Shown piece after piece: positions 9,499 through 30,224 of a stretch of DNA of 64,000 nt. Location of the stretch: positions 37,670,068 to 37,734,067 of the forward strand of contig CM059566.1 in the NCBI GenBank assembly GCA_030386875.1. The letters are read 5' to 3'. Made by a program: the position numbers and the translations under genes. The stretch comes from Morinoia aosen. Lineage: Eukaryota > Arthropoda > Malacostraca > Amphipoda > Talitridae. A model generated the notes under the pieces. It was not told the origin of the DNA and made no database searches. It saw nothing but the letters and a program-made list of their open reading frames with translations. The first letter of the stretch is position 1, and every line of letters starts with the position of its first letter.

Positions 9499-9690
9499 GA
9501 GTTTGGTACAGACAAACTACGGAGAGCATGGAAGGCCACACTGAGCAACAACTATGACATGGAGGCCTGGAGTCTCATCATTCGTGATGCTCAGAACAGA
9601 AACATTGAGGAGACCAGGGTTATTTTTGAAAGGCTGGTCACCACTTTTCCTACTACTGGCAAATTTTGGAAAATGTACATTGAGCAAGAG
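9499..9690 (+). CDS. CSTF3: CSTF3 exon 1 of those in window
   Basis: The acceptor is CATCTTTTGCAG. The exon encodes 64 residues from [11 protein letters not shown] to FWKMYIEQE, the first HAT repeats. The donor is GAG|GCAAGT, a non-canonical GC donor. The reading is fixed by alignment with human YIEAE|IKAKNYDKVEK; the nearest GT would add 4 nt and break the frame. Confidence 0.93.
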
Positions 9691-11530
9691 GCAAGTTACT
9701 GTTATTGATACCTGTTACAAAATTCCATTGGTAAGATTATATTTTTCTATATTGGATTAATTTCTACTGATCAAATTATTTTCTCATTTTTTTAGAAATC
9801 AGAATGCTGTAGGTACTGAATAGATAATTGACAATTAAAGCACCCAATGTTTGAGGTATAAGCTGCATTTCTTCTAATCAGTTATTCTAGTTTTTCATTT
9901 TTTTAGCCATGTACTGTACATTTATTAAAATTACTTCTGTTTTCTGATACTGAAAATTTTTTCTTCTGTTCATTTTGAAATTACGTATATTGAAGCAGGT
10001 ATAATGGATACATCTGAATTGGTATTTTTGATCTTGAAACTGTTGTTAGTTTTTCAATGTGTTACAAGTTGTATTTGAGAACAATTTTTTTGAAATGTTA
10101 CCCACAGTTGATCAATATTTCATGTTTGAAGAATTTTACACCTGTTTAGCGCTTTGACATGCTAAATCTTTTTTTATATTACAGATGAGAGCTTACAACT
10201 TTGAAATGGTTGAAAAGGTGAGTGCAGTCTGAAATAGTTTTGAAGGTTTATATAAGTTATTCAGTAGAAACTTACACAAAAATATGTTATTGTATTTCAG
10301 TTGTTAGTCAGTTAGCCACTGCATCTTATGCTTTAGTTAGGGCATCTTCTTACCTAATAATATCCTTCGTGCGTTTGTTTGGAGTCTGCTTCTTGCCCCT
10401 CTTGGTGACTCCCATAACGATGCCTAATGACTGAAAACTGTGATACGAGTTTCACCAATGCACAAGTACAAGAATATTTTAATTGTGGGTACTATTAGGA
10501 TGGAAATACAGTATGTCCCAAATATACCTGAACCGAAGATTTATTTTCCCGTATCAGTATTATTATAAGAATACCCTTTTCAGTAATACCATCATAATTT
10601 TTTTGGCAAGTAAATGTTTATGGTATTCTTATGAGGTGTTACTGATACGGGGAAATGAAAATTCAGTTCGGGATTTTTGTGAGACATACTGTATTTTTTT
10701 TTGGCATCCACATCTACAAGATTTATTCAAGCAAAATATTGAATCCCCTCATTTTTGACAAGTTGTGTACACTAGTTATTAAATTAAATATTCACTTAGA
10801 GGTGGAGATGAATACTTCATCTACAGGAAATTTGCAAGGGGAAAAGAAGAAGTCCTGAGCAGAAGCTTGGGTAGGCCTTTCTTTTGTTCAAATGAAACTT
10901 ATTTTCTTGTGGACCTTTTTTTTTTGGCTCACTACTATCTAGTTTTTCAGTGTTTTTTAAATTTTTCTCCAACTTCTATTGTTTCATAAACTTTTTACTT
11001 GACCCAGTATTTCTATGCACAGATCTTTTGTAGTAATACACCTTTTGCATAATTCTTCATTCCCTCACTCCATTCTAAATATTGCTTTTATCCTCCCCCT
11101 TTGGAACCATTGTTGTGGTTAAGGAGGCTCAAACAGACTTATGCTTTTTTTTTTTTTTTTTTTTTTTTGTGTTAAGGTCCCCCCTCAGGGGGGATACAGG
11201 TATTGTATCTATGGGAATTAGCGCTCCCAGAGGGACTGTGTGAGGGCCTGAGCTAAGGATTAGGTAGGCTTCCTTTTGTTGTAATAAAATAGGTTTTTGT
11301 TTTGTTACGGACCATCTTTTTTCGGTCCACTGCTGTCCTGTTTTTCAGCACCTACTACTTTCTTCTTCAACTTTTTTCTTGTTTCATGAACTTCTTTCCT
11401 AGCTTACTGTTTCTGTGCACCTTGTGCATAGATTCCGCGTTCCCTCAACTCCATACTAAATGGTGCCTTCCTCTTTCCTCTCTTGGAACATCTTTGTCGT
11501 GGTTAAGGGAGGCTAAAACTTTCTTATATA

Positions 11531-11578
<48 letters not shown>

Positions 11579-14500
11579 TGTTAAGGTCCTTCTTTTTTTT
11601 CAGTTTACTGCTGTCCAGTTTTCCAGCACTTACTACTTTCTTTTTCTGGCTTAATAAACTTCCTTCCTAACTTACTGTTTCTACATGTAGGGGATCTTCT
11701 GCAGGAACGCACCTTGTGCATAATTTCCTGTTCTCTTAACTTGGTATTAAACGGTGCTTTCCTCCTTTTTCTCTTTTGAAGAAATACCTTTGTTGCGATT
11801 AGTGAGGCTTGAACCAACCTACCGATTCTCTCAAATATTCTCAAAAAATTTGGAAAGAGGGTCCTTGGTAAGGCAAATTTTATTGAGTTATGTGGTTCAT
11901 TGTCTTTTAGTGTGGATTTGCTCTATCATTGATTTTTTTCCCTCATGCACGTTGTTTTGAGAATATGTTATAATTTAATTCATATCTTTGTCTCATGAAG
12001 AGCTCTCAGGTGGGCTGTTCTGCCTTCTACTTCTGAACTCTCTAGTTATGCTCCTATAAACCATGAGCTAAATGTTGACAGTGCATCAGACAATCATTTG
12101 AGAAAGTTTTACCAGTTTTGAAGACCTTTAAAACCAACACAGCATAAAACATCTTTTATATATACTTTTCAAGTAGAGACTAACTTGAAATATTTGTTAT
12201 GTCAGCATTATAAGCACAAATAACTTGAAGCATTTGTGGTATGCTTCCCTTCAAACAACAGCCTGGAAATCATGTTTCATGCTTCCTTTTAAACAGAATA
12301 ATTTGAACCATCGGTTTTATGTTTCTCTTCTAACAGAATAGTGTGAAACATGTTTCATAAATGCCTTTCAAGCACTGTATCATACTGAAAGTTTGTATAT
12401 TTCAAAAAGTTCTATTAAAGTTATGTTATTCAAGTGTGCTCAGCTGTTTTTTGTTTTTACAGTTATTCCAGCGCTGCCTCACCAAGGTACTCAACATTGA
12501 GCTGTGGCGTCTTTACATCACCTATGTCAAGGAAACAAAGTCCAGTCTCCCCACCTACAGGTAGGGGTCTACAAGGATCTATATCTTGTGTTTGCTGCTG
12601 CAGTTTTTGCTTCTTTTCAACGCATGACATCTTGGGTTATAAAAGGTCTACAAGAATCTATTTCTTGTGATTGCTGCTGCAGTTTTTGCTTCTTTTCAAC
12701 ACATGGCATCTGGGGTTATTAAAGGTCTACAAGAATCTATTTCTTGTGATTGCTGCTGCAGTTTTTGCTTCTTTTCAACACATGGCATCTGGGGTTATTA
12801 AAGGTCTACAAGAATCTATTTCTTGTGTTTGCTGCTGCAGTTTTTGCTTCTTTTCAACGCATGACATCTTGGGTTATAAAAGGTCTACAAGAATCTATTT
12901 CTTGTGATTGCTGCTGCAGTTTTTGCTTCTTTTCAACACATGGCATCTGGGGTTATTAAAGGTCTACAAGAATCTATTTCTTGTGATTGCTGCTGCAGTT
13001 TTTGCTTCTTTTCAACACATGGCATCTGGGGTTATTAAAGGTCTACAAGAATCTATTTCTTGTGTTTGCTGCTGCAGTTTTTGCTTCTTTTCAACACATG
13101 GCATCTGGGGTTATTAAAGGTCTACAAGAATCTATTTCTTGTGTTTGCTGCTGCAGTTTTTGCTTCTTTTCAACACATGGCATCTGGGGTTATTAAAGGT
13201 CTACAAGAATCTATTTCTTGTGATTGCTGCTGCAGTTTTTGCTTCTTTTCAACACATGGCATCTGGGGTTATTAACCCGCGCACGGTCGCGCATCCCTCA
13301 GAAAAGTAGTCAATTTACCCGCGTTACTCTGCCGTTCCCTGTTCACTTACCGTAATAGGCAGAGATGTAAAAATATGAAGTAATGAGTAAAAAATGTTGC
13401 TTTACACTTTGATGTTGTCAGATTTTTGATAACTTGAACCGTTTCTTTGTAATATGGAGTCAAACTCCGAAGATTTTTGCACAACATTGCTTCAAAGAGA
13501 TCAATGGCCATTTTTGTGTTTTGGGAACAATGTAATGTTTTTCACTGCTATTTTATGCAGAAAATCCTTCCAAACCTGCTGATGTTTTTATTTTTCCTCT
13601 ACAACAATTAGAAAAAAAGTTATGACCATTTATGTCTACTAGGTGTTATCCATTCTTCGTTTTAGTTCCTACATAAATGCATGTTTGCATGTCTGGTTAT
13701 ATTACTGTAAGTATAGTGTTTCGAAACTTGTAATTTTCACACAATATGAATAAAATACTGCTCTACACGCTACTGACTTCAGATTTGTCTTATTTGCCAT
13801 TTTTACGAAATAAGGCGAAATAAGGCCCTGAGTAGTTTCGCTGGTAACTGAGGCTGCCACTGACTGTTCGCACGCACACCCTCTCACGGTCGCCTCATTT
13901 ACCACACTGACTGTGCTTACCCCTCCCAACTTCCAAGTGGTTGGAGCTCTGCCTTAACCCCCACAATGTGGGGGTTTCTGGCTCCAGCTGTGTAGCACTC
14001 GCTGAGACGATCATTTTGGTGTATAACAACTTGGGGTTATGCCTTACGTCTGGCAACCAGTGAGCCTGGTAAATGAGGCGACCAGTTACAGTGCGCGGGT
14101 TAAAGGTCTACAAGAATCTATTTCTTGTGTTTGCTGCTGCAGTTTTTGCTTCTTTTCAACACATGGCATCTTGTGTTATGAAGGATGTTCCCTTGTATAA
14201 AGTCTCACTGGGGTTTAATGCAGTTGTAGATAAAAATTGGATGAATTTTTATGAAAATTTTATTTCGGAATAAGTAGAATCACTTACTAGTCCTGCAGTA
14301 TATTGTAGGGTCATCTTTCATTTGCATATACCATAATCATTTTATCTGAAATAATTTCTCTAGGATATTTTTAATCAGACTTTTCATCTCTTGTAATTGG
14401 GTCTCCTTGGATGTATGCAGCTGTTGTATCCATGGAAATTAGCCCTCCAAAGGAAAGATATGAGGTCCTAAGCTGAATGTTAGATAGGTCTTCCTTTTAT

Positions 14501-17500
14501 TCAAATGGGATATATATGTATTTTTTTTCACTGCATTTTACATTTTTCTGGTTCACTGATGTTTTTTTTTGTCAGCACTTGGTAATTTCTTCAATGTTGA
14601 TCTTGTTTCATAAACTTTCTTCATTCTTCCTGTTTCTATGCACAGAGGGCGTGGGACACACCTTGTACATAAATTCTTCATTCTTTTATTTTTATACCTA
14701 AGGGTGTGCCTTCCTCTCTTGGAAACAGCTTTGTTGTGGTTAGGGAGGCTTAAACTAGCTTATAAGGTAATTGATTGTATCTGCATTTCACAATAAAATA
14801 TCTGTTGTCAATGTGAACCTCATTTATGTGTAAGCAAATCTATTATTCACTTCTAATCCCCGATGTGAACTTTTTTAGACTAAAGCTGTGAATAATTTTT
14901 GCTTGGGCAAATCAAAGGTTTGTTTTTATAATTTTGGCCCATTTTTACAGAGAAAAGCTGTCCCAGGCATATGAGTTTGCCATAGACAAAATAGGCATGG
15001 ACTACAACAGCTACGGTTTGTGGAACGACTACACGCAGCTACTGAAAAACGTTGAAGTCGTTGGTTCTTATGCTGAAAATCAGAAGATCATGGCTGTCAG
15101 AAAGGTAATTATGATTTATATGACTCATAGCCACACCTGGGCAATTTTTTTATTCTACATGTGGGAATTCTTATAGTAATCATCATCTTATTCACCTTGA
15201 TTTTATTTTTGCCTGAAGCATTTGTGTAGTATGCTGGAAAAGATGATTCGAATTCCATGTTTTGCATAAATTCACCCAAGCCGGTTTTGAATCTGAATAA
15301 ATGAGTAAAAGATTTTGAGTTCAGTAGTTTCAAAGTCCTCGTGATTTTAGATTAAAAGTAGGCGAGTTCACTTTGTGTACTCTTTTTTTTTTTTTATCAC
15401 AAAATCTGTTATTTAATTGTAACTGAATGTGATTTTTTCTGTTATTTCTGCAGTTTTTCTCCATGATACTAATGCTTCATAAGGAAAGCTTTGAACATGT
15501 GTTAGAGACTTAGCGCTCTTTGAAGATACAGTAGATAAATACCATAGCGTCTCTAAAAGTAGATTTGTCTATCCTAATCTGTATCTTTTGTTGACTAGGC
15601 TTTATTTTTTGGAAGTAACCCTTGCTACCCAGAATGCGTGCAGCAACTTCAGCTTCTTGGTACCAGTGATTATTCTTTCTAGCCATAAAACCATTATGTT
15701 CAGCTTACCTTCCTCTTATGAGTAGTTGAATTTTGTGCTTTCAACCCCCTGCTAAATTAGTTTAATGCAAAGGCAAAAATGTGTACTTCAGATATTCTTC
15801 CCGTTTAGATCCTTTGTCTCAGTTTAAAATCTCCGGGCATGGCCACCAATGTAAAGCAATAAATTCTGAAGTAAGTGGTGCTACATTTTCTCTTCAGGTT
15901 TACCAGCGTGGTGTCGTCACTCCAATGGCCAATATTGAGACATTCTGGAAAGACTACCTTGATTTTGAGCGCAACATCAACCCCATCATTGCTGAAAAGG
16001 TGAGTCTTGTGCTCTTGTTACTTGTGCTAGCAGGAAACTCGATCTACAAACTCCATTTGAATCACTTGTCCGAGATAACGGAACATTGAGTCGACCTATT
16101 GAGATATTTCTGTGTGTATGTATGTGGAGTGTGTTTGCGCGCGTCTGTTTGTCAGGTTCCTATATGTAAATGTATGAATGTATGTGCTTGTGAAAGGGTG
16201 GGTAGGTGAGCCAAGAGAATGATCGTTTTTACTGCATTTGAATGAGAAATAGGATTTAAGTTTTATAGATGATTGTTTACTTATTTATCATACTTTTTAA
16301 ACTTCTCTGTATTTTAATTTTTTTTACCTCTTTGTATGTTTTTCAGCACTGAAGATGGCATTTTAACATTCTGAAATGTTTGCTAAAAACTGCTGCTTGG
16401 CATAATCATTGACATACTCATTTTGCTTTCAGATGAACATTGAACGAGGCCGGGACTTCATGAATGCAAAACGTGTGGGCAAGGAAATGGAGGGCGAAAC
16501 GAGAGGACTCAACAGGAACCTACCTAGCGTCCCACCCTCTGGACTGCCTGAGGAAACAAAGCAGGTAATTTTTTCTTGGAAAACAGATTTGCGTCGTACC
16601 GAGTCAAAAGCATTAATCATTTCAGAATGCTTGATGCTACCAAAGTGCATTATCTGGATTTTTGTATAACACTTTCTTCTAATTCACCGTTTGGTGTAGC
16701 CACTATACCACGGGCTTTTCTTGAAGTTTTATTTTCCATCTTTTTTTGTATAATAGTTCCTTATCTTCATACTGAATGGTGCCTTCTTCCCTTTGGAACG
16801 TTTTTTTTAGGGGTGAGGGAGGCTTAATCTAACATCTAATCTAATCTGTATAATAGTTCATGAGTCCTTTTCCTGACTTGAACAGGTTGAAGTATGGAAG
16901 CGCTACATCCGCTGGGAGAAGGACAATCCGCTACGCACCGACGACCAGACGCTCGTTACAAAACGGGTGCGCTTTGCGTACGAGCAGTGCCTGCTGTGCC
17001 TTTCCCACCACCCTGACATCTGGTATGAGGCAGCCCTCTACCTCCAGGAGTCCTGCAAAATACTCTCAGAAAAGGGGGTGAGTCTCATTTATTATTGCAT
17101 TCTTTTCATCTGTGGAGATTTTGGTCTTGGTAAATGATGTCTAAGCTCGTGGTCGGTGTTTCTTTAGCTTAAAGAGATCGTTGTGTGGCGATAGCATTTC
17201 TGCAAAGCCAGCAAATTTTCATATCAAAAACACATGAAGGATTAAGGACACAACTCACCAGTAGCTGCTAGTGTTTTTTATGTTGTTTTAGTCAAGGAGA
17301 TGTTACTTGCCATGAAGTTATCCGTGCAATAATGCTTTGGAACGTGCTAGTGCGATATGGCTTCATTTTTGTTGTTTTTCAAGTGATGAAGTGGAAAGAG
17401 ACAATTATTCATTTTGAATATTATCAATTTATAAATGAATTGCATTTGCTAAGTGTGCTGTATCAACAAGCCTATGTTGGTTTTTATCACTCAAAGGCTT

Positions 17501-20500
17501 TTCTTTTAGCAGACATAAACTGAGGCAACAGTTGACCTGTTGTACCACAATATCTCCTAGTCGTAACGAGTGAACTGTTGCACACAATATCTCCTAGTCG
17601 TAACGGGTGAACTGTTGCACACAATATCTCCTAGTCGTAACGGGTGAACTGTTGCACCACAATATCTCCTAGTCGTAACGGGTGAACTGTTGCACCACAA
17701 TATCTCCTAGTCATAACAGTTGAACTGTTGCATCACAATATTTCGTAGTCCTAAACTGTTGCACCACAATATCTCCTAGTCGTGACAATTTAACTGTTGC
17801 ACCACAATTTGTACTAGTCATAACAGTTGAACTGTTGCGTCACAATATCCCCTAATCTTTCCCGTTTCAGGACGTGAATGCAAGCAAAATATTCAGCGAA
17901 GAGGCTGGTCAGATCTACGAGCGCGCCATCTCGGGGCCGCTACGTAAGAACCAGTTGCTCTATTTCGCCTACGCCGACTTTGAGGAGTCGCGCCTGCACT
18001 ACCAGGAGGTGCACAAGATCTACCAGCGCTACATCAACATGCCCGATGTGGACCCCACGCTGGTGAGGTGGTGTGGTAGTGTCTTGCAAGTTCGGCTATT
18101 GGATCTATGGGAATTATCTATTGGATCAATGGGAATTGGCACTCCCAGGGGGAAATGTGTGAGGGCCCAAGGTGGGAGTTAGGTAGGCCTTCTTTTTGTT
18201 GAAATAATGTTCTTCGTTATTTTAAGGACAGCCTTTTTTGGTTCACTGATGTACTGTTTTTCAGCACCTACTACTTTCTTCTTCTTCTTCTTCAACTCTT
18301 ATATTGTTTCGTGAACTTCTTACTCAATTTACTGTTTCTATGTTCCTTCTGCATAGATTCTTCATCCCCTCATCTCCATACTAATTTGTGCCTTTCTCCT
18401 TTCTCTCTTCGTAATGCTTGTTTTTTAGCAGTCAGATAAGCTTGAACTTATGTCTAATCTAATCGGTCTTTCAAGTGTTAGGGCAGTCGAGGAATGTAGG
18501 GGCTGATCCCCTGCTGTAAATAGACTGGTGTCCTGGATTTTACAGGAACTTTTGAAAGTTCACATAGAGAAATTTTGGGAAGCATCTGAGAGGCATTGGT
18601 TGCTGAAGTTTGGCATGGTGTGAGGCACGGGAAGGTAGAGCTTAGGCCCATTTCACACTGAGCTAGCAAAGCATCTAGTAGGCCCGCATGAGCTATCTAG
18701 CAGACGGTCTGCGAGACTGGTAGTTAGGAATAGCTTTTTCACCTTGGATGCTGGATAAAACGTGCGTGTTCAGTATGAAGGCAACGGCTCGTGATAGTGC
18801 TATTCCTACCTTCCAGTCTCGGGAGACCGTCTGCTTGATAGCTCATGCGAGCTTGCTAGATACTGCTGCTGCTTTGCTAGTTCTGTGTGAAATAGACCTT
18901 ACACTGGTCAAACACATGTCACAACTTGCTGGGTCATGAATTTGATCACAGAAATTTGTGAGATGTTTTGGGTGTATGAACACTCAATGTTGCAGAATAT
19001 TTTAGATGTGCAAATGACGCTCAGCTAAACGTTATTTGGGTATACTTGCAATCTATGGTTGGGGAGATTTTTTACTTGCTGTGTAAATTATTACGTGTAT
19101 TTTTTAGTAAAGTATAACGCGATATAGCCTAGAATTCTTCACCCCTTCACTAACCATTATCCTCATGTGTTTTTGGACCACTATACAATGGGCATCTAGC
19201 ATAGAAACTGCTCATTTTATTGCACTAGTGACTTCTATTGCACTAATTATTTGTTCTCTACCTCTCGAATGATGGGAAGAAAATAGTCAAATCGTGAGAC
19301 GACACTTTACTCGACGTCTGTGCAAAGAGATTTTGTGTTATCATAAATTCACGTGTACTTGTGCGTGAAAATTTGTGATTGTAAATTTATTTTGTTGGTG
19401 CCCCTACGTCATAGGTGGTATCTTAGGTCTTAGACAACCCGAGAGCTCTTGGCTTTTTCTGTTACTCTTTTCTGTACTATTCTATATTGGAAAAACGCAG
19501 ATCATAGTAACATTTCTGATTCTGCTCTGTACTATTCTATATTGGAGAAGATGCAGATCAAAATAACATTTCACATCCTGCCCTACACTATTCAATTTTG
19601 GAGAACACTTGGATCAAAGTAAAATTTCTCCTGCTTATTTGCATGTTACAATTCTCATTCTTGTATGCATGCCACAGGCCTACATCCAGTACATGAAGTT
19701 CTCCCGCCGCGCTGAGGGCATCAAGTCTACACGCGAGGTGTTCAAGAAAGCACGTGAAGACTCGCGCACCCAATTCCACGCGTATGCCGCAGCTGCGCTC
19801 ATGGAATACTACTGCAGCAAGAACAAGGAAATTGCCTTCAGGATATTCGAGCTCGGCCTCAAGAAGCACCCTGACAATCCCGACTATATAATGTCTTATG
19901 TGGACTATTTATCGCATCTTAATGGTGAGTTCTTCTGGGGTGGTCTCTGTTTTTAGTTGCGATTGAACTGCTTGTTTTCCTCAATGTCGTGGGTTATGTT
20001 TGTTGCATTATATGTTCTAGTTCTTAACTGTGTTTTTCTGCCTATTTGTGTATGTGATCATAAGAGGGAATGCTAATGTTAACAGCTGAAATTACGTGAG
20101 TTATGTGCGTGGTAATTAATTGTGTGCGAGTCCTATACACATTTAGTTCGAGCCAGTTAGATGAAAGAACTTTGGAAACTGCTAAAATATGTTGATTTAC
20201 TCACGAGCGAAATTTTTGAAATGAGTGACACGAGACAGTTAATCAACTTAGATATATTATTTTTAGTATTTAAGGTATTTCTGAAGCAAGAAATTATTTC
20301 AAATGCGCTCTATCTCGTGTTTTTTTTACACATTCTTTTTCATATTGTGTAGAAGGGAAGGTGAAAATAGATTTGGGGGCTTCTGTCTCGGAGCAAACTT
20401 TCAATTTCTTACTCTTTTAAGTTACCAGTGGGTGATCTATTGGGAAATATTACTAATAAGCAGGGGGAAGTTTCTGCAGTTCACACTTTTCTTCTCCACT

Positions 20501-23500
20501 CCGAATCCCCTTCACACGTATAGCAATGCATGGGAGAATTCGAAATACGTTATCCACAGTGAACATGATTACCAAAAATACATAGTATACAAAGTCCACA
20601 GTAAACTTGAGCTAATCGGTAGGCCTGGAATGTGTGGCGCTAGTAACAACCTTCTTGCAAACTATTACTACTACTATTACTCTAGCTACACAGGATTTTT
20701 AAAATAATACAGAGCTGGCACCTTGGCGATCCGGCCGCCAAGGATGCCTCTAATATCAATGAAGATTTGAGACTCACTAACGTGTTGCAGAGGACAACAA
20801 CACCCGCGTGTTGTTCGAGCGCGTGCTGTCATCAGGACAGCTGAAGAACGAGGACACGGTGGGGCTGTGGAACAGATTCCTCGAGTTCGAGTGCAACGTC
20901 GGCGATCTCGCCAGCATCGTCAAGGTTGAGAAACGGCGAGCGCACGTGCTTCAAAAGGTAACCAGTGGTTCATTTTCCTTTTTTGTATCCCCTCAAGGGG
21001 CAAATGATATGTGGTAGGTCAAGGTAGCTAAGGTTGTCTACCTTGCGTTACGGGTAGTGACACCCCTAGTGGGATACTATTGGGTTACTTCAGTTATAGA
21101 TAGGCTTTCGTGACTTCTGTCTTTCAAGCCCATTTTACCTGTCAGTTTTATGCATTCTTTGCTTTCTCTCCTATTTTTCTTCATTCCTAACGTACTCCAG
21201 TGCATAGGTATTCTGTGTTCGTAATAATTCTGCAAAGTTGAGCCATTTATGTGGTCAGTCCACGATTGGGTCGTAAAAAGTCTCAGTACAAAAAAAGCTG
21301 CATCTTTTATCATGCGGCTCAGAGCAGCCGGTTCAATAATTGTGAAAGCGTTCTACATGAAGAATTCTAAGCCAGACTTCTGTGAGAAACGTCTTTGTTC
21401 GTTGATAATTCGCAAGACCTGATATAGGGGGAGTTCTGAAAAATCTATTGGAGAAATTTGATCTATTGGAAATCTATTGGAAAAATCTTGATGTGAACTG
21501 GCAATAATGTTATTCCAAATACTAAACAGCATGCATGCGGCGACCTCATGTGTAAAGCTTAATGTACGTTTCCAGCTGCAAGAGTTTGAAGGAAAAGATA
21601 CAGCCCAGCAGGTCGACCGCTACAAGTTCATGGACCTCTACCCCTGCACGCCTGATGAGCTCAAGTGAGTGACGGTGTCGTCCGTAAGTCATTGTTAACT
21701 GATAAATGTTTGTGTTACCCATCCTGCAAAACTCTTAGAGAGGGTCAAGCGTGCATTTTAGCTCCCTAGCAGCGCTAACAGCACTAAACATGTTGTTGAA
21801 GTAGCCACAACATGAGGTAGCTAATGATGTTGAAGTTGCCTCAACATGAAGTAGCTAACGAGAGCATTACACACAGCAGCCACAGCGCCCCACCACTAAT
21901 GTAATCACCTGCACTTCACAGAGCCATTGGTTACCGAGACATCAGCACGCACGTGACCATCAGCAACCCGCACATCCCGCGCGGTCTGCTCAGCCACGAG
22001 GCGAACGAGAAGGCGTTCGCCAGGCCAGACTTCTCGCAGATGATCCCCTATAAGCCCAAGATCAAATACGTCCCTGGCGAGCATCCCATTCCGGGTATGT
22101 CGGTCCCTCTTCACTATCGTGGCGTGTTTGTGTTGTGAGGAGGGACGTTTGTTATGTGATATTTTAGGAGTTTTTGTTGTGGGGGGTTACATGTGATATT
22201 TTAGGGGTGACGTTTGTGATGTGATATTTTAATCCCATTCCAGGTATGTCGATCTCTCGTCGCTATCATGGCGTGTTTGTGTTGTGGGGGTTAATGTTAG
22301 TGAAGTTTTAGGGGTTTGTGGTGTGAGGGGTGACGCTTGTTATGTGATATTTTAGGGGTTTGTGTTGTTACTGGTGACGTTTGTGATATTTTTGGAGTGA
22401 TTCGTTCTTTTTAGGTGTTGAAATGGTTGGCTTATGGGATGTATGCGCTTCTAGTGATTTGTCTTAAAATAACACAACTGCCTATGTGCAACCTTAATCA
22501 TTTTTGCATTCGGCTAATAATATCGGTAACATTAGCCATTTGCAATAAGAGTTTGCTGGCCTCACGTCTTTTTATCTCAATTCGTTTATGGCTTTTTGGG
22601 TAATACGTTCCTAATTAGCAAATTTCCTAAAAGCTCATGGCACAAATGCTGTGGCCCTAAATATTAAAATCGATGTGGCATAGCAACGGTTTCATTTGAC
22701 AGTGTGATGCTGGTGAGCAGGCTTAATGCGAGCTTCACATCTATTCTCTAAACATGTAAATATAAGGAACTTCCAGTTAAGAAGTTCCGGTGATTGCGGA
22801 TATGCCGAAAAAATTTGTAAATAGATGTAAAATTTGTAACGGTGTCATTCACGCCTGATTGCCAACATCGCTACTCCAGATCAAAATGTCGTCACATCAC
22901 ATTGACAGGGGAGAAAAAGCAGTTGAGTATAGAGAGAGACGAGTTAGGGTCTGAGTATCACACGTTTATCGCATGTAATCGCGACTCGTTTAATCAAATA
23001 GTAGGGAGGCTTAAACTAAGTTATTATTTAATATAATCAAACAAATAGTGCACTTGGTATACAATTATTTTATGTAAGTGAATACTGGGTATGAATTTTG
23101 TGTGTGTAATTCATGCCTGGTATACACTTATGTATGCAAGTGAATACCGAGCACGATTTTATGTGTGTAATTCATGCCCGGTATGCACTTGAACTGGAAA
23201 GGCTATACCTAGTCCAAAAATTGTGTTATGAATTCCTTGTAATCAACACATACATTACGGACTGCCATGGGTAAGGCTGACGGTGTGAGGGATATATATC
23301 CTTATTATTGGGCGTCTGTGTACGCTGACAATTAAATAAGGTTATTGGCTCCCTGAGGTCTTTCTTCCTGGTCCGAGTCAACTTGGATAAAAGAAAATAA
23401 AATTTGGCGTAGGAATTCTTGAACTCTGGCTTTAATCTTCAAAATTCTGCCTTGGTCCCCAATGTAGACCCACTCCTCAGGGAGGTACAGCTAATGCATT

Positions 23501-25428
23501 TATGGAATTCAGTGCTCATGAAAAGATGAGAGGTATCGAGCTGATGGCTTGGTAGGCCTTCCTTTAGTTGAAAATAGAGTAATTTTTATTTCTTGTTTAG
23601 ACCATCTTTTTTCGATTTCTCTTAGGGAAATACAATTATTGTATGTATGGGAATAACCACTCCAAGAGGCAAAATATGTGAGGGCCCGAACTGAGAGTTA
23701 GGCCTTCTTTTGTTGATTTTTGTTAGGTAGGCCTTCTTTTTATTGAAATAAAATGTTTTTGTTATGTTAAGGATCGCCTGTTTTCGGTTCACTTCTGTCC
23801 TATTTTCAGCAGCTACTACTTTCTGTTTCAACTTTAATCTTGTTTCATATTCTTCTTTCTCAACTTATTGTTTCTATGTCTCCTACTGCATAGATTCTGC
23901 ATTCCCTTCTCTGTATACTAAATGCGGCCTTCTTCTCTTTAGCGCGCCCGGCCACATTGCAGTTTTTTGATGTGGATGACCAAAAACTGCAATATGGCCA
24001 GGCGCGCGCGTAGATGCCTCGGGGATTTCAGCGTGAGCTGGGCGCCCGGCCGTAAATGGGTGGGCAGCTGAAATACCCTACGGGGTTTTGGCTGTCCTGT
24101 GCTTGCGGATTGTGCGTGGCTCTATGGATGGTCTTTTGGAGACCAGCTGGGCTCTTATTATGATGACTATAACAATAGTGAGGGTGACAATTGAAACGGT
24201 TTTTGTGATGGCTGTGACTGTGTTTCGTAATGGTAATTGTGACAAGTATTGGACAACAAATATATAGTATGCTTTTGCTGAAATGATGTTATGTTTGTTT
24301 TTGAACTGTGAGACCTACGGCGCGGTATAGTACGAACTACTGCAGCGCTAGCAAATCAACGCTAATACTTCTACTACCTTCTTCTATTTGGAATGCTATT
24401 TTTTTTGTCGGTTAGGGAGTCTAAAACTAACATTAAATGTAATGTTGACTAGGCGGCAGCTTCCCGCCTCCCCCCACCGTGTCCAACCTCCTCTCCATCT
24501 TGCCCCCGCCGTCGTGCTTCAGGGGCCCCTTCGTCAGGGTCGAGGCGCTCATCGAACTCATCCTCAGGATAAACCTGCCTGAATCAAGTACGTTTTCCTT
24601 CATGTTTGACGCGTTGACTGCATATTGGGACTTATGTGTACCCCTAGTTAGATTGCTCATTTACGTACCGGCATAAATGAGTAGTGTTTCAATTAAACCC
24701 CTGTATTTTTCAAAAACTGTTCTTAGCGCACAAGCTAGACTATTATTGTGCAATTATATTTTTTATGCTTTGAAATGACAGGAATGTATTTGACCTGTAA
24801 AGGCGGTTTTCAGAGTTACTATTTGCAACCTAACCTAATCGCCTGTCGCAAATTTAATCAACGTGTAAGAGTTTGACTGCGATGGGTTAAACTGTGATGG
24901 GATCATATTTGTTGCAGATAGGGAGGCTTAAACTTACTAATAATTTAATCTAATCTTTCTCGAGCTGAAATTTTTACATGAAATTTATTTGTGAACATAA
25001 CGCTGGAACTGAAGCACCCCACTCTCCCTACCTAGTATTAATTATTATTTTCGTCACATATAACTCAAATCATACTTGTACTTTCACGCACATATTTTTT
25101 CAGTAAAGTCGTAATGTAAATACGTTATCTTTTTTTACAGTATAACTTGTGTAAATGCTCTTCCTTATATATTCGTCAAGACTTTCATTTCTGACCGGCC
25201 TGTGCAGGTGACCAATGGAGTGGAAGCAGCAAGCACAACATTCGCCTGTTCGATTTGTCGAAGTCGGTGCACTGGGTCACGGACTCTACGACGGGCGAGA
25301 AGAAGCGCAAGCTTCTCGTGACAGGTTTTAATGGTGCAGGGGCAGGCAGCGACGACGAGGATGCTGACAACAGGCCTAACCTTGCCAACGACATCTACTT
25401 GGCTCGACAGCACAAGCGCATGAGATAG
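9499..25428 (+). CDS. CSTF3: Cleavage stimulation factor subunit 3 (CstF-77, suppressor of forked), 14 exons, N-terminus missing
   Basis: Recognised by homology over its whole length. Exons: 9499-9690, 10185-10217, 12463-12560, 14951-15104, 15898-15999, 16433-16564, 16886-17077, 17871-18062, 19678-19924, 20791-20957, 21576-21664, 21922-22094, 24453-24587, 25208-25428. All phases join and sum to 708 codons plus stop; human CSTF3 has about 717 residues. HAT repeats fill most of the protein (for example VEKLFQRC, YSYL-like helices, [13 protein letters not shown]). A proline-rich hinge follows (exon 13, [12 protein letters not shown]), then the conserved C-terminus [11 protein letters not shown]. 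CstF-77 is the nuclear scaffold of CstF: it dimerises, holds CstF-50 and CstF-64, and contacts CPSF during pre-mRNA 3'-end cleavage. Only about ten N-terminal residues are missing. Intron 1 has a GC donor. A second reading frame follows 6 nt after the stop. Confidence 0.97.
10185..10217 (+). CDS. CSTF3: CSTF3 exon 2 (33-nt microexon)
   Basis: The exon lies between TTTATATTACAG and GTGAGT. It encodes 11 residues, [11 protein letters not shown], phase 0 at both ends, aligning with IKAKNYDKVEK of the human protein without gaps. Confidence 0.93.
10509..10691. mobile_element. mariner/Tc1-type MITE
   Basis: The inverted termini are CAGTATGTCCCA and, from the right, CAGTATGTCTCA, each flanked by TA. 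The arms extend about 75 bp (for example TTTTCCCGTATCAGTA on the left, complement on the right), so the whole 183 bp folds into a hairpin. It is non-coding. Confidence 0.75.
10850..11140 (+). repeat. Dispersed ~350-bp repeat (family S), copy 1, 5' truncated
   Basis: The diagnostic order is GTAGGCCTTTCTTTTGTT, a TTTTTTTTTGGCTCACTACT-type block, TTTTTCAG, a stretch of TTC/AAC, TCTATGCAC, TTGCATAATTCTTCATTCCC, and an end GTGGTTAAGGAGGCTCAAAC. It lies sense to CSTF3. Confidence 0.7.
11175..11580 (+). repeat. Dispersed repeat family S, copy 2 (nearly full length)
   Basis: It starts with the small palindrome CCCCCCTCAGGGGGG and ATTGTATCTATGGGAATT, and passes through TGTTTTTCAGCACCTACTAC and TGTGCATAGATTCCGCGTTC. 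It ends GGTTAAGGGAGGCTAAAAC, followed by an (AAT)14-like tract at 11531-11577. This is the best reference for the family. A 3' microsatellite tail suggests spread by reverse transcription. Confidence 0.75.
11583..11835 (+). repeat. Dispersed repeat family S, copy 3, 5' truncated
   Basis: It starts in the CTTTTTTTTCAGTTTACTGC block and ends at AGTGAGGCTTGAACCAACC. It directly follows copy 2 in the same orientation, sense to CSTF3. Confidence 0.7.
12463..12560 (+). CDS. CSTF3: CSTF3 exon 3
   Basis: The acceptor is TTTGTTTTTACAG. The exon encodes [19 protein letters not shown] through SLPTY and leaves AG for a split arginine codon. The donor is CCTACAG|GTAGGG. Three bases into the intron the 79-bp minisatellite begins. 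Confidence 0.95.
12561..13275 (+). repeat. 79-bp minisatellite starting at the exon 3 donor, 9 copies
   Basis: The unit runs GGTCTACAAGAATCTATTTC, TTGTGATTGCTGCTGCAGTT, TTTGCTTCTTTTCAACACAT, GGCATCTGGGGTTATTAAA. The first, most diverged unit includes the donor itself (TAGGGGTCTACAAGGATCTA). One further unit lies at 14104-14180, beyond the element at 13276-14099. Two unit types alternate (TTGTGATT or TTGTGTTT; ACGCATGACATCTTGGG or ACACATGGCATCTGGGG). Confidence 0.95.
13276..14099. mobile_element. piggyBac-like MITE inserted in the minisatellite
   Basis: The 824-bp element is flanked by TTAA on both sides (13272-13275 and 14100-14103). Its ends are CCCGCGCACGGT and, inverted, CCCGCGCACTGT. Removing the element plus one TTAA restores an exact 79-bp unit boundary (GGGGTTATTAAAGGTCTAC). 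A second inverted pair, GGTCGCCTCATTTACCA (13888-13904) and its complement (14067-14083), lies subterminally, as piggyBac ends often show. No transposase is present, so it must have been moved in trans. Confidence 0.88.
14104..14180 (+). repeat. Last unit of the 79-bp minisatellite
   Basis: One unit displaced from its array by the piggyBac-like insertion. It ends in ATGGCATCTTGTGTTATGAA, after which unique intron sequence starts. Confidence 0.9.
14395..14765 (+). repeat. Dispersed repeat family S, copy 4
   Basis: A full-length, diverged copy, from GGGTCTCCTTGGATGTATGC and TTGTATCCATGGAAATTAGC to GTTAGGGAGGCTTAAACTAG. It is sense to CSTF3, 185 bp upstream of exon 4. Confidence 0.7.
14951..15104 (+). 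CDS. CSTF3: CSTF3 exon 4
   Basis: The acceptor is CCATTTTTACAG. The first A completes the split arginine codon, followed by [15 protein letters not shown] through [14 protein letters not shown]. The donor is AAAG|GTAATT. The segment aligns with human EKMAQAYDFALDKIG. Confidence 0.96.
15898..15999 (+). CDS. CSTF3: CSTF3 exon 5
   Basis: The acceptor is TTCTCTTCAG and the donor AAAAG|GTGAGT. The exon encodes 34 residues, [20 protein letters not shown] through INPIIAEK, in phase 0, aligning with human [20 protein letters not shown]. Intron 4 (15105-15897) holds nothing recognised. Confidence 0.96.
16433..16564 (+). CDS. CSTF3: CSTF3 exon 6
   Basis: The acceptor is TTTTGCTTTCAG and the donor AAGCAG|GTAATT. 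The exon encodes [20 protein letters not shown] through LPEETKQ, 44 residues. It includes the conserved GLNRN and PSVPP segments of CstF-77. Confidence 0.96.
16720..16856 (+). repeat. Dispersed repeat family S, copy 5 (3' fragment)
   Basis: Contains CATACTGAATGGTGCCTTCT and ends GTGAGGGAGGCTTAATC with a TCTAATCTAATCT tail, 30 bp upstream of the exon 7 acceptor. Sense to CSTF3. Confidence 0.7.
16886..17077 (+). CDS. CSTF3: CSTF3 exon 7
   Basis: The acceptor is CCTGACTTGAACAG and the donor AAGGGG|GTGAGT. The exon encodes [20 protein letters not shown] through CKILSEKG, 64 residues, aligning with the human segment [20 protein letters not shown]. Confidence 0.96.
17528..17866 (+). repeat. ~38-bp minisatellite ending in the exon 8 acceptor
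   Basis: About nine units of CTGTTGCACCACAATATCTC plus CTAGTCGTAACGGGTGAA, some shortened. The last unit, CACAATATCCCCTAATCTTT, grades into the acceptor CCCGTTTCAG of exon 8, matching the unit at about two thirds of positions. The array therefore appears to include the splice site. Confidence 0.85.
17871..18062 (+). CDS. CSTF3: CSTF3 exon 8
   Basis: The acceptor is TCTTTCCCGTTTCAG and the donor ACGCTG|GTGAGG. The exon encodes [20 protein letters not shown] through PDVDPTL, 64 residues with the conserved [14 protein letters not shown] family S repeat begins about 25 bp into the following intron. Confidence 0.96.
18085..18465 (+). repeat. Dispersed repeat family S, copy 6
   Basis: A full-length copy with a partly duplicated 5' part (two CTATTGGATC..ATGGGAATT blocks), CTGTTTTTCAGCACCTACTA, CCATACTAATTTGTGCC, and a tail GTCTAATCTAATC. 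Sense to CSTF3, starting right after the exon 8 donor. Confidence 0.75.
18645..18898. mobile_element. Hairpin MITE, possibly PIF/Harbinger type
   Basis: The inverted ends are GGCCCATTTCACAC and, from the right, GGTCTATTTCACAC. Both flanks read TTA (18642-18644 and 18899-18901), a 3-bp duplication as Harbinger elements make. Arms of about 95 bp include CTATCTAGCAGACGGTCT and its complement, so the whole element is a stem. It is non-coding, and the superfamily rests on the short duplication alone. Confidence 0.65.
19455..19640 (+). repeat. ~60-bp tandem repeat, 3 copies, before exon 9
   Basis: Three diverged units of CTGTACTATTCTATATTGGA and CAGATCATAGTAACATTTCT, the last only 37 bp from the exon 9 acceptor. 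It is non-coding. The rest of intron 8 (18899-19454) shows nothing recognised. Confidence 0.7.
19678..19924 (+). CDS. CSTF3: CSTF3 exon 9
   Basis: The acceptor is GCATGCCACAG and the donor AATG|GTGAGT. The exon encodes [20 protein letters not shown] through VDYLSHLN, with the conserved ALMEYYCSK and IFELGLKKH. It ends in phase 1. Confidence 0.97.
19925..20790 (+). other. CSTF3 intron 9
   Basis: No repeat or gene is recognised in this intron apart from a short TAC/TAT-rich tract near 20660. Confidence 0.6.
20791..20957 (+). CDS. CSTF3: CSTF3 exon 10
   Basis: The acceptor is CGTGTTGCAG and the donor CAAAAG|GTAACC. The exon encodes [18 protein letters not shown] through [25 protein letters not shown] is identical to the human stretch. 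The splice phase (1 in, 0 out) fits both neighbours. Confidence 0.97.
21576..21664 (+). CDS. CSTF3: CSTF3 exon 11
   Basis: The acceptor is ACGTTTCCAG and the donor CTCAA|GTGAGT. The exon encodes [20 protein letters not shown] through PDEL plus two bases of a lysine codon, aligning with human [13 protein letters not shown]. Intron 10 shows nothing recognised beyond a faint family S-like GTATCCCCTCAAGGGG start at 20986. Confidence 0.96.
21922..22094 (+). CDS. CSTF3: CSTF3 exon 12
   Basis: The acceptor is TGCACTTCACAG. The exon encodes (K)[18 protein letters not shown] through EHPIPG and ends in phase 1 at CCGG|GTATGT. The donor and the last 12 exon bases are repeated 149 bp downstream. It matches the CstF-77 linker before the proline-rich hinge (QMIPYKPK). 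Confidence 0.94.
22083..22400 (+). repeat. 149-bp tandem duplication carrying the exon 12 donor, plus GT-rich sub-repeats
   Basis: ATCCCATTCCGGGTATGTCG at 22083 recurs as ATCCCATTCCAGGTATGTCG at 22232, followed in both by a matching TATCRTGGCGTGTTTGTGTT stretch. Sub-repeats with GATATTTTAGGGGT follow to 22400. The downstream copy contains an intact donor-like AG|GTATGT. Confidence 0.85.
23480..24445 (+). repeat. Dispersed repeat family S, copies 7-8, split by an insertion
   Basis: A partial copy (23480-23620) and a second copy from TTAGGGAAATACAATTATTG (23624) run to CTTCTCTTT at 23940. The matching 3' end, GGTTAGGGAGTCTAAAAC (24412-24429), appears after about 450 bp of foreign sequence. The tail ends 8-10 bp before the exon 13 acceptor. 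Sense to CSTF3. A further 3' fragment lies at 23004-23034. Confidence 0.65.
23941..24392. mobile_element. Unclassified insertion with a GC-rich hairpin end
   Basis: It splits a family S repeat. It starts with a hairpin, GGCCACATTGCAGTTTTT and complement AAAAACTGCAATATGGCC (23950-24000), bounded by GCGCGC. It is richer in GC than the surroundings, has no long reading frame and no obvious target duplication. It could be a truncated retroelement or a DNA element. Confidence 0.4.
24453..24587 (+). CDS. CSTF3: CSTF3 exon 13 (proline-rich hinge)
   Basis: The acceptor is AATGTTGACTAG, poor in pyrimidines and lying right after a repeat tail. The exon encodes (G)[35 protein letters not shown] and NLPE. 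In the family this segment binds the hinge of CstF-64. It joins in phase 1 on both sides. Confidence 0.93.
24588..25207 (+). other. CSTF3 intron 13
   Basis: The intron contains a short family S 3' fragment (24905-24955, AGATAGGGAGGCTTAAAC with TTTAATCTAATC tail), sense to the gene. Nothing else is recognised. Confidence 0.6.
25208..25428 (+). CDS. CSTF3: CSTF3 exon 14, C-terminus and stop
   Basis: The acceptor is CGGCCTGTGCAG. The exon encodes (S)[19 protein letters not shown] through a glycine/acid tract [13 protein letters not shown] to [12 protein letters not shown] and TAG (25426-25428). The conserved ending (human DIYRARQQKRIR) shows that the stop is genuine. The exon runs on into the downstream reading frame without a splice signal. 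Confidence 0.96.
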
Positions 25429-25434
25429 AGCAGC

Positions 25435-26943
25435 ATGGGCACTGACGCGAGGACTGGCAATTTGGCGCACTCTCACGGCACGCAACACCAGGCGTTTACA
25501 CGTGGTCGCAAGACCTTAGTTGAAGGTGACTATTTCCAGCAGAGATTTTTCCGCTCACCGGAACAGACGTCTGTAAGATCGAGGTTTGGGTCTTACCAAA
25601 GTCACGAAAATGCAGAGTTAGGGTTTAGGACATCCACCGAGGGTATCGTTTCTGCTGACAGAGACGAAGAAGTTGTGTTTCCAGGAGGGAAGCTGCAGTC
25701 CAAATGTGTTACGTTCGCTCAGAATGAGGAAACGGACTGCGTTTTTCCTGATCCACCTGAAAATTACGAAGTAGCAACACCGTATAGTGACCCTGCGTCT
25801 GAAGGTGACCATGACGAAGCAGCCCGACGTTTGTGGAGTGCTGTTGAACCTTCCCCTACCTACGGACCCAAAATTGACGAAGAGCCGCGGTTCTACTCCG
25901 TCTGGGGAAATAATCCCTATGGAGATAAGGATCTCAAGCTAACTTCTTTGACTGACGAGGGTAATCATCTTATTGACGAAAATAACAACTACAACGTATA
26001 TAGTTCTTCTGACTTGCAGCTTATGAACGATTTTAATGAAGATTATCTGAAATTGTTGGGAGTAAACGCCCATAATTCTCCGGCTGGTAACGTTAATGGT
26101 TACACAAAGCCTGGTATGTCTGCTAACCTTCACGATCAGTACTGGGGTCCGTTAGGTTCATCAGGACAGAATTGGATGCTTCCATCGCAAAACCATGATT
26201 TCACTTTACCCTCGTATGCTCCGAACCTAGAAAGCTGCTACTCGAACCAACACAGTATGCTACCACTCTCGTCATACCCCACATACGCGAACGTTTCTGC
26301 CAGCATGCCCCAAACATCGAACTTCATAAACTCTTTCTCCAGAGGTATGAATTCATTTTATTCGTTTCCTCAGAACACGAGCTCCTTATCAGCGGTTCAT
26401 CATCCACTGACGTCGTACGCATCGGTCGCTCGTAACGCGAGTTTCAACCCTTATTCCGCCGCTCAGAACGTGCACTCGTATTCCACTGCTGTGCAAAACA
26501 GTTTCTCACCGCTTGAGAATTTATCCTTGAACAAGAGCTCGTTTCCAAATACCCTTAACAATAGTTTGGTGCCTCATACTGCGATGAAAATGAGTGCATG
26601 TTCTGGTGCTCGATCGGACATGCTTCATTTCCCCAACTCAAACAACATCAATGGATTTCCTCTCCCCCAAAACATGAGTCATCTAGCATCCCCTGTGGAC
26701 CACTCCTGGAACAACAATGCCATCTATCCTAAAGAATTGCCGACTGCTCTGCGGAGCGCTGAATCACCAGGTCAGGTTATGTTCTGTAACCCGAATGTGA
26801 CGTACGATTCTGACGTACCTCATTTGTCTGCTGCTGACTGCTCCTTCCTCGGACGTAACCAAAACGCCGACTACCGACGAGCTGTCGCTGGACTGGCATC
26901 GTCATTCTCGAACTTGGACATCGATGATGGCGTGGGACTGTAA
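25435..26943 (+). CDS. Uncharacterised 502-residue protein, second cistron behind CSTF3
   Basis: The frame begins with ATG at 25435, two codons after the CSTF3 TAG and in the same frame, and ends in TAA at 26941. The start context AGCAGCATGG has A at -3 and G at +4, a favourable initiation site. The frame is far too long to arise by chance. I do not recognise the family. The N-terminal third is acidic and charged, with a possible conserved block RRLWSAVEPSPTYGP followed by EEPRFYSVWGNNPYGDKD. The middle and C-terminus are rich in Ser, Asn, Pro and Tyr, probably disordered, with repeated SYPTYANVS-like and NSFSPLENLSL-like segments. It ends SSFSNLDIDDGVGL. No signal peptide or membrane segment is seen. 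It probably shares the CSTF3 transcript; alternatively it is made by stop readthrough or from its own transcript. Confidence 0.88.
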   Translation: MGTDARTGNLAHSHGTQHQAFTRGRKTLVEGDYFQQRFFRSPEQTSVRSRFGSYQSHENAELGFRTSTEGIVSADRDEEVVFPGGKLQSKCVTFAQNEETDCVFPDPPENYEVATPYSDPASEGDHDEAARRLWSAVEPSPTYGPKIDEEPRFYSVWGNNPYGDKDLKLTSLTDEGNHLIDENNNYNVYSSSDLQLMNDFNEDYLKLLGVNAHNSPAGNVNGYTKPGMSANLHDQYWGPLGSSGQNWMLPSQNHDFTLPSYAPNLESCYSNQHSMLPLSSYPTYANVSASMPQTSNFINSFSRGMNSFYSFPQNTSSLSAVHHPLTSYASVARNASFNPYSAAQNVHSYSTAVQNSFSPLENLSLNKSSFPNTLNNSLVPHTAMKMSACSGARSDMLHFPNSNNINGFPLPQNMSHLASPVDHSWNNNAIYPKELPTALRSAESPGQVMFCNPNVTYDSDVPHLSAADCSFLGRNQNADYRRAVAGLASSFSNLDIDDGVGL

Positions 26944-28160
26944 GGACTTATCCTCTCGTACAGTATTTGCATACATCCGAAGGAAGGCAGGCACTCTCAA
27001 TCTTATTATTTTCTTACAAGTAGTGATTCACGCTAACTCCTAATTTACTTCTCTAATTCATTCACGTTGATGACTAAGTTTATTTTAATCATAGCGAAGT
27101 ACGCGGTTCTTCCCGAGCTAGAGTTTCGTTGTCAATTCATTTAATGGAACTCCATTGAACGAGGAATTATAATTTGCAATACTTGTGATAAGCGTATTGT
27201 TCTAATATATTTCTTACGAGCTCAAGGTTACATATGTACCAGGTTTTTTTTTGCTCGTTTGAAATTGCCATTCCCATTCCCGTGTTCATCCATTGAATGG
27301 TAGACTTAAGTGCAAGCGATTTGTGTGCTCTAGACTACTGCTATTTGTTCACCCCTGGATTCGCCCAAAGTGCGTATCGCCTAGACAATTTATCGATTTT
27401 ATCAGGGAATTTGAATCAGAAAAGTTAACTTATATCAGTGTGCTGCTCAGAAGCCCGTGCTGGTGCTCCATCTCACATCGTGTGTGTTCGCTGCGTTTCG
27501 AGTCTGTCGGTCCTTGCATGTATATTTTTCATACCTTTATACTGGGTTCTGACATGCACTGCTCATTCAGGGCTTTGTGTGTGTCGGTATTCTCGTCTCT
27601 GCCGCCTTCTGTTGTTCCGCCTGCTCAGGGATGATCGAACCGACGGCCGTTCTTGCTAAGGCGCGGAAAAAGTTGGGTCATGATTTGTCAGGTGGGTTGT
27701 GACTAACATTCATCACAACCTACGGCGCTTTTCGTACCCTTGCGAGTTTGGTGGAATCTTGTTTTATCTCTATTGTACGCAATGGGTTAAGGTCACGTGT
27801 AGTTATTAGCCGAATGCAGTGAACGTCATGAAGTTTCGTCGGTCGTAATTCCTCGTTTGTTGTAACGATGTGTGCCCGTCCTTATTGAAGACAACACCGC
27901 CGATGTGGCGTTTGCTTCTTGCTGACGTCTTCTGATGAAGTTCAACAAATTCCCCTAGCTTTAGTTGTAAACTAGCTATGTTAAAAACTAGAATTTCTTC
28001 TAGATTGACTGTAAATATTTACTAGACTTGTGAATGATTTTAGGTTGGACATCTTTACGAAGTCGGAAGCTGCAATGGGTCAGTGTGGCGCCATTTGCTC
28101 TGTAATTTTTGTATCATAGCTTTGTCTTTTACCGTAATAAATGACTTAATTTATATTTTC
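26944..28160 (+). other. Shared 3' untranslated region
   Basis: No coding sequence or splice signal is seen. The region runs to the first good poly(A) signal at 28136. It serves both CSTF3 and the downstream frame if the mRNA is dicistronic. Confidence 0.65.
28136..28141 (+). terminator. Poly(A) signal AATAAA
   Basis: AATAAA is followed about 20 bp downstream by a T/GT-rich element (TTTTCGTGTGTTTT), the layout expected of a cleavage and polyadenylation site. It is the first such signal after the CSTF3 stop. Confidence 0.7.
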
Positions 28161-30224
28161 GTGTGTTTTAATGAGGCTTGAATTTATTCTACCTTGAGAT
28201 ATTGACTGTGCATAGCACGAGTAAGTTCGGATTCTCATTTTCCCTCTTCCTCTTTTTTGGGTGTGCAGGCGGAATCTTGGGGTCATTCTGTTAGGTATTT
28301 GCCTAACACTTGGCACCGAAACAGCTGTGACGGCACATGTATTTTCTTGAGGCAGCGCTGGCTATGATCGCACCGAGCTCCTCTCCCAGAGTTACTTACA
28401 CTTTGACCGCAATTGGTTAAACTGAAGTTCAATACTCAAGTATTAAGTCAATTGTAAGCAATTTTGGAAATAGCCACCATTAACTGGATCTTGCCTTCAT
28501 TTACCTTTAATTAAACGTTTATGAAAATTGAGCTTGTGACTACTGGTCGATTGGTGGCATGTTGAAACTCCTCCGTGGCCGCCGGTGGCGCGCGTTGCGA
28601 AGTGTTGAGGCATTTTTCATTTCACGAGCAAATCGCTACTTATCTTCGGTTTCTGTAGTTACTTCTATGTTCTCCAATTAAAGGATCCAATTGTCTGGCA
28701 ACGGCAACCCCGCCTTAACATGAGCGCGCAAAGTGAACGAGTGAAAGACGTTAAATAAGTTTTACTTTTAATTACAAATAATTACAGGCCTGTAAACGTT
28801 TCGGTGCTAACAAAAGTAAGGGCTCCCGTTTTCAAAAACCTATTCTATCGATTTATAGGGCAAAGTTAGAGTGAGAGACTTCTGAAGTTCAGGATGAGAA
28901 ATTAGTGTCATTTGAAGTTCGGAATGAAATATAAATTAGAGTGAGCATCTAGCGAAATTCGAAATGAAAGGTAATTAACTCAATTTTACGTTTGTGTTCA
29001 GTGTAATTATTGACCTGCACGTTAGTGACGTTACAGAACAGCCTCAACATAGCTAGTCAAGTACACGTCAACTTCCCGCGAAATCACGATTCCCAGAAAG
29101 CTGGGAATCGGTGGCAGCAAAGCTGTGTTTCTTTTGGGGAACTTTTATTCAAGTTTTAAGTCATTGTACGTTATGAAGTACATAAGCGCGCTATGCACGT
29201 CGAGTAGTACATAAAGTTTTGGTGAACGCGATTTTCCTCGTGTCAGTTATGAGTCAATTGTGATTAAACGAACACTATTTGGTCCATTTTAAAAATTTTT
29301 ACAAATACCAAGCAACACATAGTAAAGAAGACGAACTGTATAGGAGACTCTTCTTTCCACTAAACATAGTGAAAGACATTTTCAAACCAAACCATTAGGC
29401 TAATTGAAATGGAACTTCCTGTATACGATTTCCCTAAGTAAAACTGAGCATAACAAAGCAACTTTTACATGAATATTTTTTCACATATCTTATCATAAAC
29501 GAATTTTCATTTGAAACCATATTCGGGGTGCACACTTTTACTGAAAATAAGGATTCGCGGACATATCTATCAAATTCTTGAAATTTTAAGTCAAAAATAT
29601 GCATCACAGGAGGTTGACCTGCGCTTTTCTTAGCCGTGTTGCGGGTAAGTGGTGACCAATTTATTCGTCATTTTGGTTATAAAATGTCATATCACAGCAA
29701 CTTGCAATGACTGGACATGAGTTAGTGAAAAAGATTTGGGTAGTGCTACCGCGTTGTGGATTAGCTGTGACGTTCATTGGAACCTAATGGGCAAGAGTTC
29801 AAAAAAAAGTGGTTCATTTAGGTTTGTAATTAGTTCGGTCTCCTGTGTGGATGAAGAGAAGGGATAAGTTGTTCAACTGCATTGTTTTCAATTCTTCAAA
29901 TATTAGGCTCGACCAAGTTGTATTCTTTACAAGTTTACGAATGCCCAGGTGACGTTTTTTCCCTAGAAAGAAAGGTGTTATATAGTAGAGGGTGCGAAGG
30001 CTGTTAGAGGAAATGTTTTCAGTACATTACATTCTTGAAACATTTGTAATATTTTTCATGTCATATAACGCATTCAAAATACAATATTAATCCAAAAATG
30101 GAAAAAATACATAGTTGCTCTGCAAAATATAGCGATTTGGATATCAGTAACTTTTTACATGTTGCCAGATCATTTGTTTATAAGATTCGGTTGGAGCTAG
30201 AGGGATATGATGGCACGCTAAAAA
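28161..30224. other. No gene seen
   Basis: Unique-looking sequence without a supported exon, RNA gene or clear repeat. A short TTCCCAGAAAGCTGGGAA palindrome at 29090-29109 is the only local structure noted. Confidence 0.5.

Follow-up and report, generated by a model that had tools for sequence, protein, structure and literature searches.

Messenger RNAs carrying two coding frames are established in flies: FlyBase lists 159 dicistronic pairs in Drosophila, 45 of which make both products solely from dicistronic transcripts, and very small products are over-represented in the set (PMC4528330). Comparable arrangements are also described for the spliced-leader operons of Ciona intestinalis, which have near-zero intercistronic sequence (PMC7986045), for the termination-reinitiation mRNAs of caliciviruses, influenza B and mouse embryonic GAD, in which stop and restart lie within a few bases (PMC5972666), and for long fly readthrough extensions of the kel and hdc type, in which an in-frame open, low-complexity and disordered region follows the stop (PMC4528330, PMC5100048). 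Here, we analyzed a 64,000-nt stretch of the genome of the amphipod Morinoia aosen (GenBank assembly GCA_030386875.1, contig CM059566.1, positions 37,670,068 to 37,734,067 of the forward strand; called the window for simplicity), in which the gene for the polyadenylation factor CSTF3 (CstF-77, su(f)) is followed almost immediately by a second long open reading frame (ORF2).

The locus resembles the Drosophila pairs in its two closely spaced coding frames on one strand and in an apparently shared terminal exon and poly(A) site, and its 6-nt gap falls in the range of -34 to 319 nt given for fly polycistronic-only loci (PMC4528330). It differs from them in belonging to an amphipod, in having CSTF3 upstream and in encoding an orphan second protein of 502 residues. 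Stop and restart within a few bases are shared with the termination-reinitiation mRNAs, but the frames are separated by a six-base gap rather than overlapping, no exact UGGGA is present and the first frame is very long. As in the Ciona operons, there is next to no intercistronic sequence, and amphipods do have spliced leaders; unlike in Ciona, the acceptor at the ORF2 AUG is poor, the upstream gene lacks a canonical poly(A) hexamer, and amphipod operons are not reported (PMC7986045). The open, low-complexity, probably disordered continuation recalls the kel/hdc-type extensions, from which the locus departs by a strong-context AUG at the third codon and by a UAG instead of a UGA, and no stable structure was found after its stop.

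We favor the reading that the CSTF3 mRNA is structurally dicistronic and that ORF2 begins at its own AUG, most likely via termination-reinitiation, and assign it a probability of roughly 45%. The initial annotation had described a 502-codon frame six nucleotides past the CSTF3 stop, in the same frame and with a favorable initiation context. All of this held: no stop codon separates the two frames, the start (agcagcATGg) has A at -3 and G at +4, and the frame stands out in the open-run and period-3 controls. Order-2 Markov simulation (2000 sequences, 3 kb each) gave open runs of at most 309 codons at ORF2 composition and of at most 250 codons at intron composition (the intron set still including one 33-nt exon), and the next longest stop-free runs in the window outside tandem arrays were 316 and 303 codons. 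The period-3 signal was 10.45 for ORF2, 32.7 for CSTF3, 0.47 for the 1.2 kb past ORF2 and 0.17-0.97 for eight intron pieces; when 600 pieces of 1506 nt, which overlap one another and are not proven noncoding, were drawn at random from outside the mapped exons, none came up to the ORF2 value (maximum 5.2). Because frame length and period-3 signal both exceed these controls, ORF2 looks like a coding frame, with a codon use unlike that of CSTF3. The GC content at the three codon positions was 0.50/0.45/0.49 in ORF2 and 0.54/0.36/0.72 in CSTF3; at third positions (GC3), the last CSTF3 exon (0.71) and the Kv exon of the window (0.66) were also above ORF2, whose low value is expected of a weakly translated or a separate gene. 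An antisense gene at ORF2 was considered and dropped.

Table 1. Features of the CSTF3-ORF2 locus (window coordinates).
Feature	Position	Strand	Remarks
CSTF3 (CstF-77, su(f))	9499..25428	+	14 mapped coding exons; based on splice sites, frame, tblastn with T. longiramus P0001, and 6uro_E
CSTF3 coding exons, 1st-7th mapped	9499-9690, 10185-10217, 12463-12560, 14951-15104, 15898-15999, 16433-16564, 16886-17077	+	
CSTF3 coding exons, 8th-14th mapped	17871-18062, 19678-19924, 20791-20957, 21576-21664, 21922-22094, 24453-24587, 25208-25428	+	
Acceptor-like sites	25325..25340	+	exon start 25325 or 25340; scores 5.9, 7.2; possible entry of an ORF2-only mRNA
CSTF3 stop codon TAG	25426..25428	+	C-terminal residue identical in T. 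longiramus P0001
Spacer AGCAGC	25429..25434	+	six bases (two codons) between CSTF3 stop and ORF2 ATG
ORF2	25435..26943	+	502 codons; ATG 25435, TAA 26941-26943; orphan, Ser/Asn-rich, probably disordered
Shared 3' untranslated region	26944..28160	+	no period-3 signal; poly(A) hexamer at its end; end near 28160 inferred
First AATAAA past CSTF3 stop	28136..28141	+	followed by GU-rich CGTGTGTTTT at 28160-28169

The CSTF3 product matched the solved CSTF3 structure 6uro_E (E 8.2e-241, chain residues 87-716) through the HAT repeats and the C-terminus, and its closest listed protein was that of Trinorchestia longiramus (P0001), with 98% identity over the aligned part and differences scattered along the exons; the next listed protein reached 76%. 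The window thus most likely belongs to a talitrid that is closely related to T. longiramus but distinct from that record. The annotated T. longiramus protein ends in ...LARQHKRMR and the window CSTF3 stops at the same residue, for which reason the TAG looks like a genuine stop, as had been proposed, and a sequencing error creating it was dropped as an explanation. The terminal exon had been numbered 14. We mapped 14 coding exons, but tblastn did not place the N-terminal 20 residues of P0001 in the window, so that at least one exon probably precedes these and the terminal one would be number 15 or higher. Donor sites were GT in 12 of 13 cases and GC in the remaining one, which lies at 9690 after the first mapped exon (GAG then gcaagt). 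A 79-bp unit repeated 9 times (12566-13275) begins five bases past the exon 12463-12560.

The second cistron encodes a protein rich in Ser (13.1%) and Asn (9.8%) with a mean hydropathy of -0.65, 12 Met among its 502 residues, an estimated mass of about 55 kDa and an acidic segment at residues 95-245 (net charge -18). AlphaFold2 run on the single sequence gave a mean predicted local distance difference test score of 34.4 with no residue at 70 or above; the protein is probably disordered, and the low score fits, although a poor score is expected without an alignment. The search with the 502-residue protein suggested in the initial annotation was carried out in a database of 5.8 billion proteins and found no relative: neither the whole protein (6021 candidates) nor residues 93-245 (324 candidates) gave a match at E<=10. 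The search is seeded by shared 5-residue words, which a fast-evolving relative could escape. Since the T. longiramus CSTF3 is present in the same database, an annotated ORF2 protein of that species, had one existed, would probably have surfaced. A query joining CSTF3 and ORF2 (residues 400-1202) retrieved 331 proteins at E<=1 among 7989 candidates scored, and the best 120 of these 331 span at most 37% of the query, corresponding to the CSTF3 share, with none entering ORF2. The dicistronic mRNA and the UAG readthrough put forward earlier both stand as leading options; their extension to arthropod CSTF3 in general is not supported. Searches with ORF2 in the PDB and, with six peptide patterns, in viral contigs gave no match; entries from the same genome as the window, or from one very close to it, may be missing from the locus search. 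Nothing in Pfam exceeded the cut-off, a sub-threshold phage tail family (E 0.058, 14.1 bits against a cut-off of 24.4) being taken as chance, and Rfam gave no match at gathering scores at the ORF2 locus (its one match in the window lies elsewhere). The window holds no second copy of ORF2 (best other tblastn E 1.0), and a transposon origin was dropped, as the frame is not repeated in the window and has no Pfam match above the cut-off.

Neither AATAAA nor ATTAAA occurs between 25208 and 28136, in agreement with the earlier remark that no poly(A) signal separates the frames; the absence of canonical hexamers extends through ORF2. Past the CSTF3 stop, AATAAA is first met about 1.2 kb downstream of ORF2, and consequently any CSTF3 mRNA that ends with this signal includes the two frames. 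As judged from the genomic sequence, the CSTF3 mRNA therefore probably carries two genes. In the mechanism we propose, ORF2 would be a true second cistron within the CSTF3 terminal exon: the pre-mRNA would be cut and polyadenylated near 28160, the mature mRNA would consist of CSTF3, the six spacer bases and ORF2, and a small share of the ribosomes finishing at the CSTF3 UAG would remain on the mRNA and reinitiate at the AUG at 25435. The output would be a low, CSTF3-coupled amount of a disordered Ser/Asn-rich protein. Reinitiation appears the likeliest route because only six bases separate the stop from this AUG, whose context is strong. A reinitiating cistron favors a near and good AUG, in which case the shared frame would arise by a 1-in-3 chance. 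The nearest upstream in-frame stop of ORF2 is that of CSTF3 itself, which a CSTF3-independent gene would not need and which supports the dicistronic arrangement. Just past the stop, the RNA forms weaker folds than its shuffled versions do (z +1.67 and +1.79), as suits a start site.

Several observations weigh against this reading. ORF2 has no homologue in the databases searched. Its period-3 signal is uneven over six parts (1.09, 4.32, 4.33, 1.76, 2.2, 2.59), with the lowest value in the first. The codon likelihood trained on CSTF3 is highest in frame 0 (-46 and -33 in the remaining forward frames; -48, -26 and -60 on the reverse strand) yet slightly negative (-4.5), and synonymous choice, which does not match that of CSTF3, by itself gives -39 in frame 0, no better than the -27 and -28 of the other two frames. 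Variant poly(A) hexamers are found in or after ORF2 (26035, 26061, 26325, 27204), because of which some CSTF3 mRNA may end inside ORF2. Reinitiation after long frames is called "presumably very rare" in a review (PMC5972666), and no exact UGGGA (TGGGA), the caliciviral motif 1 that precedes the stop in reinitiation of the TURBS type, is present in 25200-25440.

ORF2 might instead have a separate, shorter mRNA with the CSTF3 terminal exon in common, produced from a promoter within the gene, by alternative splicing or by addition of a spliced leader at 25325 or 25340. We consider this rather doubtful, but possible in view of the acceptor-like sites and of the spliced leaders of amphipods. Trans-splicing is described in amphipods (PMC7986045) and leaders are named for Parhyale (PMC5111886), and the downstream gene of fly dicistronic pairs often has its own promoter (PMC4528330). 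The two AGs at 25325 and 25340 rank at the 96.0 and 97.4 percentiles of 1001 AGs, which also counts against our preferred reading; on the same scale the 14 real CSTF3 acceptors score -9.3 to 10.8 (leave-one-out). The earlier statement that no intron signal lies between the two frames is probably right, as the AG there (25434) scores -8.5 (25th percentile) and is an unlikely acceptor, though one real acceptor scores -9.3; the last CSTF3 exon, however, holds the two AGs that score like real acceptors. In an mRNA starting there, a short frame would open at the AUGs 25331 and 25361 and close at 25423, leaving 12 bases to the start of ORF2. An independent gene, however, need not begin six nucleotides past a stop and in its frame, the amphipod operons that a leader-based route would resemble are, as said above, not reported, and three Parhyale leader fragments had no exact match in the window, a search that does not address the rest of the genome. 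A promoter scan for bacterial-type sites found 2 against 2.1 expected, which is uninformative for a eukaryotic promoter.

The common reading frame of CSTF3 and ORF2 would also allow UAG readthrough, yielding a fusion protein of some 1,230 residues in which the AUG is incidental. We regard this as unlikely. Readthrough is abundant in insects and Daphnia (PMC5100048), and known extensions reach more than 1000 residues, the long ones being low-complexity and disordered (PMC4528330), but most fly extensions comprise only 8-300 residues (PMC4528330). AGCAGCA, which lacks a single letter of the 8-mer CAGCAGCA enriched near fly readthrough stops (PMC5100048), immediately follows the stop and recurs at 25225; the full 8-mer was not found in the region. 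The stop is a UAG (UAG-A), less common in readthrough than UGA (PMC4528330, PMC5100048), and no stable structure was found after it: four folds around it gave z +1.67, +1.79, -0.10 and +1.27, three being weaker than their shuffles and one equal. A leaky stop context and a stimulatory RNA structure are associated with readthrough, not obligatory for it. A readthrough region needs no AUG, so its presence at the third codon would be a coincidence; with 12 Met in 502 residues, we estimate an AUG among the first three codons at about 7% by chance, and less in a strong context. Finally, ORF2 could be a relic or untranslated stretch (e.g. a decaying or very young gene) in a long CSTF3 3' untranslated region, as its missing homologue, its codon use unlike CSTF3 and its uneven period-3 signal might suggest, but this is improbable for an intact 502-codon frame with a period-3 signal above all 600 control pieces.

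On the dicistronic reading, an amphipod mRNA would couple CstF-77 to a long lineage-specific disordered protein, either via reinitiation or as the first amphipod spliced-leader operon, which we propose only tentatively. The initial annotation had regarded an accessory protein co-expressed with a polyadenylation factor as novel. Dicistronic mRNAs as such are not new, given the 159 Drosophila pairs; what is unusual here is that the partner is a polyadenylation factor and that the second protein is long and an orphan, and the amphipod case would be a new member of the dicistronic kind if the transcript exists. None of the papers searched joins "dicistronic" with "CSTF3", and we make no wider claim of absence from print. 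If the reading is true, poly(A) site choice by CstF-77 could affect retention or loss of the second cistron in the mRNA of CstF-77 itself. Reinitiation after a long frame can usefully be tested on natural cellular mRNAs of this sort, in which two long frames are separated by next to nothing. If the arrangement is real in several talitrids, annotation with one frame per transcript has overlooked a gene, and the locus offers a simple test, in Crustacea, of coupling, of readthrough and of operons with spliced leaders.

Elsewhere in the window, a 301-codon open frame on the minus strand (38479-39384) had no Pfam match at E<=0.01 and may represent one exon of a gene that lacks annotation. Open frames of 181 and 194 codons on the two strands cross an array of 15 copies of a 33-bp unit (62045-62538, 99% matches). 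A voltage-gated channel exon (Ion_trans, 50729-51661, minus strand) contains the Rfam potassium channel RNA editing signal RF00485 (92.5 bits, 50939-51052, minus strand). Two long minisatellites of different units, one of 14 bp x 175 (55596-58050) and one of 15 bp x 131 (58205-60164), each 98% uniform, flank a gap of 154 bases (58051-58204) in which a T1 exon of a potassium channel is located (BTB_2 E 2.2e-10, minus strand).

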